DNA of 32,545 bases. Origin: Bacteroidota bacterium (GTDB taxonomy: Bacteria > Bacteroidota > Bacteroidia > Bacteroidales > JABHKC01). The stretch covers positions 1 through 32,545 of the forward strand of contig JABHKC010000092.1 in assembly GCA_018692315.1 (NCBI GenBank), in the 5' to 3' direction. Under the pieces are notes generated by a model. That model searched no databases, was not told the DNA's origin, and saw nothing but the letters and a program-made list of their open reading frames with translations. The translations under genes were made by a program, and so were the position numbers. This document shows, piece by piece, positions 25,725-31,696 of the stretch (the stretch's first letter is position 1; each line of letters opens with the position of its first letter).

Positions 25725-27524
25725 TTAAATTATAGGTGTTCTATCTACTACCTCACACGAATCTTTTACGGCTGCACTCATATTGAAGCATGAATCGTAT
25801 TCTTTTTCGTCCTGAACTTTTTCAGTATATATATGTAAAAGATTCTTAATGCTGGTTAAAATTGGATTCATACTTGTCTGTCCTAAACCACAACGACTAA
25901 CTTTTACAATTTCGCCCCATGCTTTCAAATCTTCAATATCTTGTGGAATACCTCGTCCTTTGATAATTTTCATTAGTTTCTTTCTCGAAACCACAGGTAC
26001 GTTTCTACAAGTTGAGCAAGAGCCACATGATTCTTCAATAAAGAAATCGATGAAATTCAGAACAACTTCTTCGAGGATTTCTCGGTTGTTGCCAATAATA
26101 ATCATTGCTCCTCCGGTAGCTATATCTGAATAGCTTAAAGTTCGGCTGAATTCGTTGGGACCAACTAAAGTTCCAGAAGGACCACCAACCTGAACTGCTT
26201 GCACATTTTCAGCACCGGCCATATCAAGCACGTCACTAATTTTAAATCCCCATTCTACCTCATAAATGCCAGGGAATTTACAATCACCGGAAATACTCAA
26301 AATCTTTGTTCCGCTAGAATGATTAATTCCCATCGATTTGTACCAGTCTGCACCATTTGTCAGAACTTTTACTGCAGAACATAGTGTTTCAACATTGTTA
26401 ACTACGGTTGGTAAATCAAGGTATCCTTTTTCTACAGGGAATGGCGGACGGTCTCTTGGTTCACCACGTTTTCCTTCTATAGACTCAATTAATGCAGATT
26501 CTTCTCCGCAAACATAAGCTCCGGCACCAAATTGAATTCTGATATCAAAATCGAATCCTTCAATTCCAGCAATACCTTTTCCAAGATAATTGTTTTCTCG
26601 AGCATTTTTTAGAATAGTTTCAAGATAGCTTTGAAGATATTTGTATTCGTATCGTAAATATAAAATACCTAAATTCGCTCCTATCGCATATCCGGCTATT
26701 GCCATTCCTTCAAAAACCAACTCGGGTTTTTCTGTCAAAATCACACGATCTTTGAAAGTTCCTGGCTCGCCTTCATCGGCATTACATATAACAAATCTTT
26801 GGTCGCCAGACGATTTTCTACAGAAATCCCATTTCATTCCTGTTGGGAAACCCGCACCACCTCGGCCACGTAGATTTGAGTTTGTAATCTCGCCAATAAC
26901 TTCTTGAGGACTCATTTTTGAAAGAGCTTCTTTAAGAACTTTTCCTTGAGTGTAATTATCTTCCAGAACAATTCCTTTCTTCCTTATGTTGTTATTAACC
27001 ACAGATTTAAGAAGGTCGGAACTGTTTTTTCCTCCTCCATAACCTTCAACCAAAATATCCTTCGCATTTTTGCCGGCTTTAATATCGGCAACTATTTCTT
27101 TCACTCTGAAAGGAGTTAGTCGTGTAAAAATGACGTTGTTGATAATTGCAGCAGGTTCCTGATCGTTCATTCCAATACAAGATGTATCGAATAAACCAAT
27201 TTGATTATCGCTACTTACTTCGCCAAACTTGCAACCAACTTCATTTTCAAATGCTTCCTTCACTTTTTCTCTTCCCATCATATTGGCAACAACACTATCA
27301 TTAAGATAGATTGCATATTTCCCAACAGGCTTTTTGGAGAAGAAGTGATAGAATGATATAGTTTGTTCTACATCTACTTGGGAAATTCCGATCATTCCGC
27401 TTATTTGCGAAACAGCTTCGTCAGAAATAAAACCAAACTCTGCCTGAATATCTAAAAGAATATCCATTAATCGAGTTTTATCTTTCCCGAATTTTTCAAC
27501 AATTGCTTCTACTTTAGTGTTCAT
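25725..27524 (-). CDS. hoxF: NAD-linked hydrogenase diaphorase subunit HoxF with NuoE-like N-terminal domain
   Basis: HoxF exchanges electrons with NAD(H) through FMN. The 599-residue protein combines an N-terminal NuoE-like thioredoxin-fold domain (about 1-150) with a NuoF-like domain, as in the Ralstonia eutropha soluble hydrogenase. The FMN/NAD sites are GRGGAGFPTGMKW (220-232) and NADEGEPGTFKDR (248-260), with CGEESALIESIEG at 339-351. The [4Fe-4S] ligands are C500, C503, C506 and C545. In the NuoE-like part only one of the four usual [2Fe-2S] cysteines is clear (C116); the equivalents of the first pair are N75 and A80, and the fourth position is N120. This domain therefore probably lacks a standard cluster. 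It is the first gene of the operon. Confidence 0.93.
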   Translation of the reverse strand: MNTKVEAIVEKFGKDKTRLMDILLDIQAEFGFISDEAVSQISGMIGISQVDVEQTISFYHFFSKKPVGKYAIYLNDSVVANMMGREKVKEAFENEVGCKFGEVSSDNQIGLFDTSCIGMNDQEPAAIINNVIFTRLTPFRVKEIVADIKAGKNAKDILVEGYGGGKNSSDLLKSVVNNNIRKKGIVLEDNYTQGKVLKEALSKMSPQEVIGEITNSNLRGRGGAGFPTGMKWDFCRKSSGDQRFVICNADEGEPGTFKDRVILTEKPELVFEGMAIAGYAIGANLGILYLRYEYKYLQSYLETILKNARENNYLGKGIAGIEGFDFDIRIQFGAGAYVCGEESALIESIEGKRGEPRDRPPFPVEKGYLDLPTVVNNVETLCSAVKVLTNGADWYKSMGINHSSGTKILSISGDCKFPGIYEVEWGFKISDVLDMAGAENVQAVQVGGPSGTLVGPNEFSRTLSYSDIATGGAMIIIGNNREILEEVVLNFIDFFIEESCGSCSTCRNVPVVSRKKLMKIIKGRGIPQDIEDLKAWGEIVKVSRCGLGQTSMNPILTSIKNLLHIYTEKVQDEKEYDSCFNMSAAVKDSCEVVDRTPII

Positions 27525-27623
27525 AAATTGTTATTTATTTCAAAATTTAACTATTATTTTCTATTCCTGTCTTTATAGTTTATCTAATTACCAAATTATC
27601 AAATACATAAAAATTCAAATCGT

Positions 27624-27631
27624 CAAATTTA
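27624..27631 (-). promoter_or_regulatory. Candidate -7 box for the hydrogenase operon
   Basis: CAAATTTA on the plus strand reads TAAATTTG on the minus strand, a match to TAnnTTTG, about 100 bases before the hoxF ATG. No -33 element was seen at the expected distance, so this is tentative. Confidence 0.3.
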
Positions 27632-27680
27632 CACTAATTGATTTTTCTCACATATGATTTTAGTCAGCTTAAAATAATTA

Positions 27681-27803
27681 GTGGGTTTAAGAAAACGTCA
27701 ATAACTTCGTTATGCTCGTGTTTAATAAAAGTCATTTACAAAAGTAAACTCCTGTTATTAAACACTTCACAAGCCTTGTTCTTGTCGCTTTCTTAAAAAC
27801 CAC
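27681..27803. repeat. Nested inverted-repeat (cloverleaf-like) element
   Basis: An outer imperfect stem pairs 27681-27701 (GTGGgTTTAAGAAAaCGtCAA) with 27782-27803. Inside it lie three hairpins: ATAAC/GTTAT at 27701-27713; an 11-bp perfect pair GTGTTTAATAA (27718-27728) with TTATTAAACAC (27755-27765), which itself encloses TTTAC-aaaa-GTAAA (27735-27748); and ACAAG/CTTGT at 27769-27779. Flanking pairs extend it: CACTAATT (27632-27639) with AATTAGTG (27676-27683), and AAAACC (27796-27801) with GGTTTT (27817-27822). Few bases of the core are unpaired. It looks like a folded single strand or a dispersed repeat unit, not a simple terminator. Confidence 0.75.
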
Positions 27804-27876
27804 CTCAGAAATAGTAGGTTTTCTTATAATTTATTAATTTTACCTTTAGGCTAATTATAAAAATTGAATTTAGATT

Positions 27877-30537
27877 ATGAAAAAATACTGCTTCCTATTT
27901 GTTTTTATCATTAATATCACTTTTGCTTTCCCTCAGGTTCATACTACTTATTTGTGGCATTTGCAGCAGCCCAATTATTGGCCAGAGCAAAGCATAACAA
28001 ATCAGTACCACTATCAAACAGTTTGGGAATCTGATTATTTAAAAACCAGCGGAGGAAATATATATTCCGATGGGCAGGCTCATCCTTTAAACGATTTAAA
28101 CGACATTTTCAGTAAAGCCGACCGTGTTGCAGTTTATCAATATAGAGCTAAAGATGCCGTTCTATCTTTGTTGAGTTTTACTGATGGCGGAGCTCAGGTA
28201 AACTATTCCGGTTGTCTAATTGAGAACATTAATAGTCTTGCTCAAAACAACCAATGGGGATATTCTTCAGGATGGGAATCAAATTTCCAAACTGCAAGAG
28301 GATGGACAACATCTGGCGGAAAGCCACGAATGGATATTGTAGGATTTACAATGCACCACGCAATTTCGCCGCTTCTGAGCGAAAACTGTTTACGTAAGCA
28401 AATTCAGGCTCACAGATATATTTATAATCAAACTTTTGGAACATCGCCAAACTACTCGAAAGGATATTGGCCAGCCGAATGTTCGTTTAGCGAAAGAATA
28501 ATTAAAGTATTAGTTTTGGAAGGATTTGAATGGTCGATAATTGCCAATAGTCATCTTGCCCGTACTTTGCAAGATTACCCCCTACAATTTGGAACATCCG
28601 GTTGTAATTATAGCCCACCAAACAAAGCAGATATTATTCCCCAAAATGGAACAAACTGGTGGAATGGACAAATTGACGGCCGAGGAGGAACTTTTGCTGC
28701 ACCTTATTGCTATCAGGCTCACAAAGCAAAATATGTTGATCCGGAAACAGGCTCAGAATCAATCATTACAGTTGTTCCAATGGCAGATTTGCTAAGCTAC
28801 CAAAATGGATTTTCCCTAATGGGAACCGGCGACATAGATAGCCATATTGCACCTCACAATAATTCCTCGCAGCCTTGTATTGTGTTAATGGCTCACGATG
28901 GCGACAATGCCTGGGGAGGAGGCTATGATTATTATGCAAATTCGGTTCCGGGCTTTGCCAGTACAGCTTCTTCGCAAGGCTACATTCCCACAACAATTGA
29001 ACAATTTCTAACAGATTTTCCTGTTCCGGCAAACGATATTGTTCATGTTGAAGATGGTTCGTGGGTAAATGCAGCAAACGATTGGGGGCATCCACAATTT
29101 ATTAATTGGTTGTGGCCAATGTATAATTCAAATAAGCAATTCGATCCGAATGGTTGGACTGAAGATGCCAGAAATTGGGCAGTTTTGGTGGCTGCTGAAA
29201 ATCGTATTCAAATGGCAGAAGATTTGACTTCATCGGTAGATATTGCTGATATTGTGAATCCTTCCGCATCTTCGAACAATGCTGAGCTGGCGTGGCATTT
29301 TATGCTACCAGCTTACACCAGTGGATATATGTATTATGGTTCATCGCTCGACATGGAAGTGAAACAAACGCTAGCATGCAACAATGCAACTTCATACGCA
29401 GACATTGTGATAAATGCCAACTCAGGAACCGACAATACAGCCCCTACAGTTTTTATTCCGCAGCGTTTTCCATACAATCCGGGCGGAACCGGTTATGGAC
29501 CAATTTATGATTATCAGCAACATCAGAATTCTTCCGATTTTCATGTTTGGACATTTGCCTATGATGTTAGCGGAATTCAAATAATTGAATTAAAATACAG
29601 AGTAGATTTCGATGGACAAAATCCATTGAGCAACAACGAAAATGAAACTTATGCAGGAGGCTCTGATGTAAGTTCATGGAGCACAATTTCAATGTCGGAA
29701 AGAGTTTTCCCAACTGGAAATATTACAGGCAGTTCCGAAATAGATTTTTTCATCTTACCTAATTATATTGCTAAGGAATATTATGCTGAAATATCAGGTT
29801 TTAGCGATACATTGATTGATTATTATGTTGAAGCTACCGATCTTGACGGCAATATCACAAAAAGCCCTATTCAGCATGTTTATGTTGGTTCATATTCCGG
29901 AGGATCGTCCCAAACTGGTGTTTATTGGGAGCCAAGCAATCCTGATTTGAACGATTCTATAACAATATTTGTTAGCGATGCCAGCATTGGAGCAAAGCTA
30001 CACTGGGGAATTTATCAAGCCAATGGAGACTGGGATAGTCCGATTTCTGAATATTATACACTAAATTCTGATTTATTTAATGGTTCCGGGCCAGCTCTCG
30101 AATCGCCATTTTCTGGACCCGATGCAAACAATCTTTTGTCAATTACAATAGGACCTTTCGATAATCCTATGCAAATTGCCGAGCAAATTGCATTTGTAAT
30201 TCATTATGATAATGACACTTGGGACAATAACAATTCGAATGATTACTATATTTCTATCGACAATAATCCTTCTACAAAAAATGAAGTTAATTCTTTTAAT
30301 TCTGATATTGAAATATTTCCAAATCCGTTTTCCGATTTTTGCTATATAGTTACGCCAGAAAACAAATACAGCTTAATTGAAGTTTTTAATAATTCAGGTG
30401 AGCTTGTAAAAAAACAAAAAATTGAACAACGAAATGTCAAATTCGAAAGGGGAAACTTAAATGCAGGAATATATTTTGTGCGAGTTTCTACTGAAAACCA
30501 GTCGCTATTTTCAATGAAAAAACTGATTATTCTTTAA
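27877..30537 (+). CDS. Exported GH57-type glycoside hydrolase with T9SS sorting domain
   Basis: The 886-residue protein begins with a signal peptide of about 19 residues. Residues 20-400 look like a GH57 (alpha-amylase / 4-alpha-glucanotransferase type) catalytic domain: TTYLWHLQQPNYWPEQ near the N-terminus, a probable nucleophile Glu201 in YWPAECSFSERI, and a candidate acid/base Asp in LMAHDGDNAWGGGYD (341 or 343). The next ~400 residues include beta-rich domains, one resembling a starch-binding or amylase-associated module (GVYWEPSNPDLNDSITIFV). The last ~75 residues are a type A T9SS sorting domain (IEIFPNPFSD, then LNAGIYFVRV), so the enzyme is exported across the outer membrane and attached or released. 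It probably acts on alpha-glucans. It overlaps the convergent epimerase gene by 4 bases. Confidence 0.83.
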   Translation: MKKYCFLFVFIINITFAFPQVHTTYLWHLQQPNYWPEQSITNQYHYQTVWESDYLKTSGGNIYSDGQAHPLNDLNDIFSKADRVAVYQYRAKDAVLSLLSFTDGGAQVNYSGCLIENINSLAQNNQWGYSSGWESNFQTARGWTTSGGKPRMDIVGFTMHHAISPLLSENCLRKQIQAHRYIYNQTFGTSPNYSKGYWPAECSFSERIIKVLVLEGFEWSIIANSHLARTLQDYPLQFGTSGCNYSPPNKADIIPQNGTNWWNGQIDGRGGTFAAPYCYQAHKAKYVDPETGSESIITVVPMADLLSYQNGFSLMGTGDIDSHIAPHNNSSQPCIVLMAHDGDNAWGGGYDYYANSVPGFASTASSQGYIPTTIEQFLTDFPVPANDIVHVEDGSWVNAANDWGHPQFINWLWPMYNSNKQFDPNGWTEDARNWAVLVAAENRIQMAEDLTSSVDIADIVNPSASSNNAELAWHFMLPAYTSGYMYYGSSLDMEVKQTLACNNATSYADIVINANSGTDNTAPTVFIPQRFPYNPGGTGYGPIYDYQQHQNSSDFHVWTFAYDVSGIQIIELKYRVDFDGQNPLSNNENETYAGGSDVSSWSTISMSERVFPTGNITGSSEIDFFILPNYIAKEYYAEISGFSDTLIDYYVEATDLDGNITKSPIQHVYVGSYSGGSSQTGVYWEPSNPDLNDSITIFVSDASIGAKLHWGIYQANGDWDSPISEYYTLNSDLFNGSGPALESPFSGPDANNLLSITIGPFDNPMQIAEQIAFVIHYDNDTWDNNNSNDYYISIDNNPSTKNEVNSFNSDIEIFPNPFSDFCYIVTPENKYSLIEVFNNSGELVKKQKIEQRNVKFERGNLNAGIYFVRVSTENQSLFSMKKLIIL

Positions 30538-31619: not shown

Positions 31620-31623
31620 GTAG

Positions 31624-31696
<73 letters not shown>

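Follow-up and report, generated by a model that had tools for sequence, protein, structure and literature searches.

The 32,545-nucleotide stretch of Bacteroidota DNA analysed here (contig JABHKC010000092.1 of assembly GCA_018692315.1, hereafter the window) raises the question of what an extended palindrome between two divergent genes is. An earlier account made from the letters only (the sequence-only reading) had named these neighbours, and both were confirmed. The minus strand has a HoxF/NuoF-like gene; the GH57 gene lies on the plus strand and includes a Por secretion tail. Its description of the pairing also holds: the sequence contains the 11-bp arm (27718-27728 with 27755-27765), an outer stem, two small side hairpins and, at the centre, the hairpin TTTAC-AAAA-GTAAA. 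The pairing was said to be far beyond chance and is so: folded as single-stranded DNA, 27681-27834 reached -22.1 kcal/mol compared to -10.2 ± 2.7 for its shuffles (z = -4.46), and folded as RNA it reached -36.6 kcal/mol compared to -19.4 ± 3.2 (z = -5.32), with none of the 200 shuffles folding as well in either case. The RNA fold has a longer outer stem in place of the two side hairpins.

The limits first given to the palindrome, 27632-27822, were misplaced. Alignment with other copies places the repeat unit between 27681 and about 27834, which leaves 27632-27680 in the flank and carries the unit 12 bases past 27822. The outermost arm pair that had been counted in (27632-27644 with 27671-27683) straddles the left boundary and does not belong to the element; it is one among 48 inverted pairs in a 701-bp AT-rich stretch. 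Additionally, a target-site duplication had gone unrecognised and one is readable (TAATTA compared to TAATTT, five of six positions), blurred because the right end of the window copy has diverged. A pattern derived from the core, in which arms and hairpin letters were left free, was run across genome contigs and found at least 120 stretches. Two models were used: R1, a covariance model built on 21 core sequences from G000 (the window's own genome, 4.98 Mb in 248 contigs) and G004, and R2, a second core model from 46 pattern matches, one of them from a viral contig and none from G000. Two alignments were likewise kept apart: A1, a core alignment not chosen by the scan pattern, and A2, an alignment of the pattern-scan matches. 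The features of the window copy are the following.

27675-27680, no strand: left target-site duplication TAATTA, read in the sequence
27681-27834, plus strand: whole probable mobile element of about 154 bp, its limits set by aligning other copies and by the duplications
27681-27696, plus strand: left terminal repeat GTGGGTTTAAGAAAAC, common to the insertion sequence at C81:1-1869
27696-27787, plus strand: ERIC-type core (outer stem, boxes, arm, central hairpin), about 92 nt, from R1 and R2 matches
27705-27711, plus strand: 5' conserved box CTTCGTT (CTGCGTT in most relatives), from the alignments
27718-27728, plus strand: 5' pairing arm, pairs with 27755-27765 and covaries
27732-27752, plus strand: central hairpin TTTAC-AAAA-GTAAA flanked by the internal-loop strands TCA and CTCC, from fold and covariation
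27755-27765, plus strand: 3' pairing arm, pairs with 27718-27728
27773-27778, plus strand: 3' conserved box GCCTTG, from the alignments
27788-27803, minus strand: inner of the two inverted terminal-repeat copies, paired with the left end, from sequence and fold; same layout in other copies and in L203, L169 and L178
27818-27834, minus strand: outer right terminal repeat, diverged here, from alignment with intact copies ending in GTTTTCTTAGAnnCAC
27835-27840, no strand: right target-site duplication TAATTT (5/6), read in the sequence

In the alignment of genome copies the element begins with GTGG at 27681, and the right end of the core-bearing type is doubled, consisting of an inner inverted copy and an outer copy. 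R1 matches the window at 27695-27788 with 105.3 bits, this copy being one of its seeds, and R2 matches it at 27702-27784 with 47.6 bits (E 4.5e-7), this copy not being a seed of R2. As for the boxes, CGTT and CCTTG belonged to the scan pattern; the C preceding the former and the G preceding the latter did not, yet both are at least 90% conserved in A2.

The ends of the element point to mobility. The sequence-only reading had proposed a search of the host genome for dispersed copies with covarying arms, and this search returned, besides the window copy, 13 further dispersed matches (E 2e-9 or better, two of them 98–99% identical), with compensatory changes in the arms. The terminal sequence AGTGSCTCTAAGAAAAC, with up to 3 mismatches, has 129 matches in G000 compared to 25 for its reversed control, and ends of this type are found at both sides of a 1869-bp insertion sequence (C81:1-1869) encoding a 508-aa ISNCY-family transposase (NF033593, E 1.7e-121, 406 bits against a cut-off of 325). 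Contig C81 starts at the first base of the insertion sequence, so its left flank is absent from the comparison; the same left end closes contigs C39 and C182, which suggests that the assembly probably collapses several copies. A script located both ends of 16 elements in the loci covered. Exact 6-bp duplications, always TANNTA, flank 12 of the 16, and four of these 12 carry the core; one of the four elements lacking an exact duplication had no left flank. The window element itself holds no transposase gene (no listed open reading frame of at least 80 aa lies inside its approximately 154 bp). It is short, shares its ends with an autonomous element, is bounded by a target-site duplication and is dispersed in many copies, all of which are traits of a MITE. 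Its mobility is read from the ends, the duplications and the near-identical copies, and because the ends are common to the insertion sequence and the duplications are TANNTA, the pattern fits a MITE moved in trans. The ISNCY transposase of the same genome would most likely have moved it, insertion into a TANNTA target leading to duplication of the 6 bp. The MITE option, one of several that had been offered for this locus, is borne out by these dispersed copies, shared terminal repeats and duplications. The element and the C81 insertion sequence had no match in the plasmid collection, and the nearest 30 genomes to the host all belong to other families.

Other elements of G000 were observed along with these. 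A core-less palindromic MITE, mostly of 157–160 bp, has the same ISNCY-type ends (L042, L049, L056, L058, L062, L081, L084 and L085), with exact TANNTA duplications except in L081. An 88-bp derivative (L087 255-343, in G000:C4, also L018) is flanked by AAAT on both sides and lacks the part of the core that starts after CTG in the 5' box and stops before CCTTG in the 3' box. The IS5-family element at C137 was considered as a source of the ends and rejected because its own ends differ; it is a separate IS5-family transposase gene (L072 85-1629).

The same core is also found between other ends in the window's genome. A second family has the ends AGGGGACTTCTAAAAATG, with 146 matches compared to 2 for the reversed sequence, and its core is the same as that of the window element; 4-bp duplications flank 26 of its 31 delimited elements compared to 4.2 with shuffled flanks (best of the offsets tried). 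R1 found 88 matches in G000 at E ≤ 0.1 and 85 at E < 0.001, seeds included, from 150 candidates scored. Of 84 R1 places looked up, 71 lay within fetched stretches, and their left ends were of the second type in 53, of the ISNCY type in 12 and of neither type in 6, one of which begins TAGTGTTTGTCATAATGTCC. The C81 insertion sequence has no core, R1 having no match at C81:1-1869. Both types stand side by side in L079 (G000:C244:165-415), where an ISNCY-type core element is directly followed by an oppositely oriented second-type element and the central hairpin is CCGA-AATA-TCGG, not TTTAC-N4-GTAAA. A replication-strand bias was considered and set aside: GC skew along the element was positive in 22 of 63 regions (p 0.02) but is tied to coding direction (r 0.84).

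Beyond this genome, 132 pattern matches from other genomes were compared. Both free hairpin pairs were complementary in 130 of them and the arm gaps were exactly 18 in 72 and 75 of the 132; chance matches must therefore be few. Hosts among the 80 listed of the at least 120 stretches include Pseudomonas, Salinicola, Billgrantia, Chromohalobacter, Amphritea, Endozoicomonas, Enterobacter and Rouxiella, and further hosts among the matches listed are Thiotrichaceae, Mariprofundales, Desulfobacula, Arcobacter, Campylobacterales, Candidatus Scalindua, Nitrospinota, Acidobacteriota and many Bacteroidota; Halomonadaceae are among the groups that harbor the core. At E ≤ 0.01, R2 found several copies in each of 20 genomes, which were chosen because they hold one: at least 150 each in Scalindua, Marinilabilia and Mariprofundales, 139 in Fulvivirga, 134 in Nitrospinota, 126 in Acidobacteriota, and the fewest (4) in Arcobacter and Campylobacterales. 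In G000 it gave 77 places at E ≤ 1 and 74 at E < 1e-4, the window copy included. Contamination is unlikely in Scalindua because the listed copies are spread over many contigs, and it possibly accounts for the core in the single Acidobacteriota and Nitrospinota bins. Under stricter filters, R1 matched in 5 of 295 other genomes of a phylum sample, and in view of this and of the many hosts of R2 the core is described as widespread but patchy. The doubled right end of the window element recurs in elements of Desulfobacula (L203), Scalindua (L169) and Fulvivirga (L178), which also begin and end like it (GTG...AC) and have exact TANNTA duplications.

ISNCY was also considered as the common partner elsewhere and rejected, since among 19 genomes the C81 protein had a match in its own and in no other. 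The ISNCY family model gave nothing over its cut-off in 12 other core-holding genomes, with five partial places in 3 of the 12. Inward-facing ends in G004, TAGTGCCTGTCCATAAAC (L352) and TAGAGTCTGTCCATAATGTCC (L353), lie no more than a few hundred bases from partial ISNCY remnants, and their resemblance to the end of the core-bearing L032 is suggestive only. Four core matches were found in viral contigs; L160 and L162 (IMG/VR) carry a Pseudomonas-type core element with the same flanks in both, and L163 looks like chance, as do the G016 matches L033 and L035.

The core also leads to a known enterobacterial repeat. The window sequence GTCATTTACAAAAGTAAACTCCTG resembles the stretch between the two standard ERIC primers. 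An ERIC consensus matched 5375 of 5426 E. coli genomes, and blastn located three ERIC copies in two 50-kb E. coli stretches (100 kb in all). R2 ranked these three copies first (23.3, 21.5 and 19.2 bits, E 0.004–0.04), its next match lying inside pgk (E 0.44). R1 found the same three (22.7, 22.1 and 19.7 bits, E 0.01–0.07) and nothing besides them up to E 10; as R1 draws on two genomes alone, G000 and G004, members of one taxonomic order, the result is independent of the make-up of R2. The central frame from 27731 on is identical to an E. coli ERIC copy at 19 of 25 bases. Judged by sequence comparison, the core is very probably homologous with ERIC, the scores being modest and the three E. coli copies mutually related. 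ERIC (also IRU or RU-1) is described as a 127-bp repeat of enterobacteria, reported from Enterobacteriaceae and Vibrionaceae (PMC10969869, PMC2229807); the Por secretion tail in the window and the Bacteroidota relatives of the elements point to a Bacteroidota host here. Like the window core, it is an intergenic, multi-copy imperfect palindrome with a CTGCGTT box, an arm, GTCAnTTACnnnnGTAAnCTCCTG, an arm and a CTTG box. Its ends and arms differ from those of the window element: the ERIC ends (TATACTCGTCATACTTC...GAGTATA, as in L284 and L285) are absent there, the element ending in GTGGGTTTAAGAAAAC and its inverted copies, and unlike ERIC the core is enclosed either by ISNCY-type ends with TANNTA duplications or by other ends whose duplications are 4 bp long.

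Whether the pairing is kept as DNA or as RNA was approached through covariation. In both alignments the arms vary with compensation and the boxes and loops are conserved; the invariance of CGTT, CTCA, CTnCG and CCTTG in A2 is due to selection by the scan pattern, to which they belong, and these motifs are conserved in A1 also. Double-change cells numbered 78 in A1 compared to 31 in shuffled columns, and 295 in A2 compared to 114. Sliding the partner by one column in A1 lowered pairing from 78% to 43–47%. Two measures did not exceed shuffles, namely the further pair types in A1 (106 of 500 shuffles reached as many) and the doubly changed pairs in A2 (172 of 500). G-T cells fell below shuffled columns in A1 (9 of 132 non-Watson–Crick cells, z -5.9) and in A2 (36 of 240, z -3.3), and wobble on the other strand showed no consistent rise (z +2.3 in A1, z -1.9 in A2). 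RNA helices usually tolerate wobble. Because wobble pairs are scarce, DNA appears to be favoured over RNA, and selection on DNA pairing, or palindrome correction during replication, fits the data better.

The strong RNA fold nevertheless lends something to the possibility that the core acts as RNA, a processing or stability element in the 3' part of transcripts, as ERIC does in Yersinia, where copies at 3' ends are reported to alter transcript stability (PMC10969869, PMC2229807). Of the copies that share their strand with the upstream gene (37), 19 begin no more than 25 nt from its stop (core edge extended by 15 nt), which counts in favour of such a role. Of 74 core places 68 were mapped, and none overlaps an open reading frame of at least 100 aa by more than 30 nt (simple ORF caller); this intergenic placement and the stop-proximal starts fit selection against damage as well as they fit a transcript-end role. 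Gene orientations around 58 copies are mixed (18 +-, 16 ++, 14 -- and 10 -+), Rfam found nothing at gathering score in the whole window but one tRNA, with only four sub-threshold matches (E 1.7–4.5) in 27600-27900, and together with the scarce wobble this makes an RNA role improbable. That the structure serves specifically to regulate the divergent hoxF and GH57 genes, one of the options of the sequence-only reading, has the position between the two genes in its favour but is hardly credible: near-identical copies lie at unrelated places, the boundaries are of the insertion type, and a terminator-like site was searched for in 27500-27900 with none found, in addition to the Rfam and wobble results. 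The tRNA is a tRNA-Met gene (anticodon CAT) at 31623-31696 of the window, on the minus strand.

Two further accounts concern the origin of the element rather than its role. A REP-like element moved by a RAYT (HUH) transposase on folded single strands would also be palindromic, intergenic and present in many copies, as are the GTAG- and CGTC-tagged REPs known from several phyla; these differ in measuring 20–40 bp, in being tagged and in their link to RAYT transposases (PMC3733652). The unit here is about 154 bp, its target-site duplications have a fixed length, its terminal inverted repeats are those of a DDE-type insertion sequence, and it has no conserved GTAG/CGTC tag (the CGTC at 27696-27699 is CGAC, CTTC, CTCC or TGCA in other copies), so the REP-like option fails on size, tags and duplications and is very improbable. 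More weight is given to an ordinary deletion derivative of insertion sequences with a functionless core that crossed phyla by descent and horizontal transfer: the element ends match the insertion sequence, and both Bacteroidota and Pseudomonas have known MITEs whose ends are IS-like (PMC4596501, PMC2718517). Against this account, the C81 insertion sequence is without core, boxes and loops are kept in the copies while arms are replaced with compensation, and one genome holds the same core with different ends and duplication lengths, which leaves it doubtful.

With good confidence, then, the window palindrome is taken to be a MITE with ISNCY-type ends that carries an ERIC-type hairpin module, a module found joined to several transposon ends (two well-delimited kinds in G000) and in several phyla. 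The module opens with a box resembling CTGCGTT and closes with a GCCTTG box; inside these, two matching arms of variable sequence enclose NNTAC-N4-GTANN with its TCA/CTCC internal loop. The preferred view is that it is portable and may be carried by different transposases. Its conservation would most likely mean that a widespread host factor recognises the DNA hairpin, or that the hairpin favours copying of the element. The window copy is inserted in the intergenic space of two divergent genes, which it would affect only incidentally, if at all. Of the options of the sequence-only reading, a site that works as a folded single strand is the one left for the core, and it is a possible one. A broader proposal, which we advance tentatively and at rather less than even chances, is that in the ERIC core one sees part of a selfish DNA module of wide distribution, a hairpin with loops read by a conserved host protein, which spreads when joined to any DDE transposon ends at hand (ISNCY in this genome, others elsewhere).

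Several known systems resemble the window element in part. Within G000, the ISNCY insertion sequence at C81:1-1869 has the same terminal repeats and differs in coding for a transposase and lacking the core. In Pseudomonas fluorescens, R0, R2 and R178 are likewise intergenic palindromic repeats, and R0 and R2 are described as having ends identical to insertion sequences of the same strain (PMC2718517); the comparison with the window element is by the descriptions in that paper alone. BrickBuilt and other MITEs of Porphyromonas gingivalis, also from Bacteroidota, have ends resembling insertion sequences of the same genome (IS5 family); unlike the window element, BrickBuilt has different printed ends and a minisatellite inside, this comparison also being by description (PMC4596501). 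Mobilisation in trans by an insertion sequence with matching ends was also proposed for RUP of Streptococcus pneumoniae, which differs by its IS630 partner and TA target, this likeness too being by description alone (PMC2229807). In the open-licence literature covered, no description was found of a cross-phylum core with exchanged ends or of the core outside gammaproteobacteria, and among the listed papers matched by sequence strings none is on this subject by title.

With an ERIC-type core between identified transposon ends, two end systems in one genome and an occurrence in several phyla, it becomes testable how ERIC-type repeats arose and spread. If the selfish-module proposal is true, ERIC would be a single branch, in enterobacteria, of a superfamily that spans phyla, and its origin would be explained. 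ERIC-PCR bands from other bacteria could also stem in part from real targets. Finally, some further copies of the core were noted: five pattern matches 122 bp apart form a tandem array in Rouxiella aceris (L191), three R2 matches 126 bp apart are in tandem in a Tannerellaceae bin (L326/L343, G343:C159, the genome of L166), and in Enterobacter cloacae (L224, just before 531) a core element lies, by eye, about 30 bases past an apparent tRNA 3' end (GGTTCAAGTCC...CCA).
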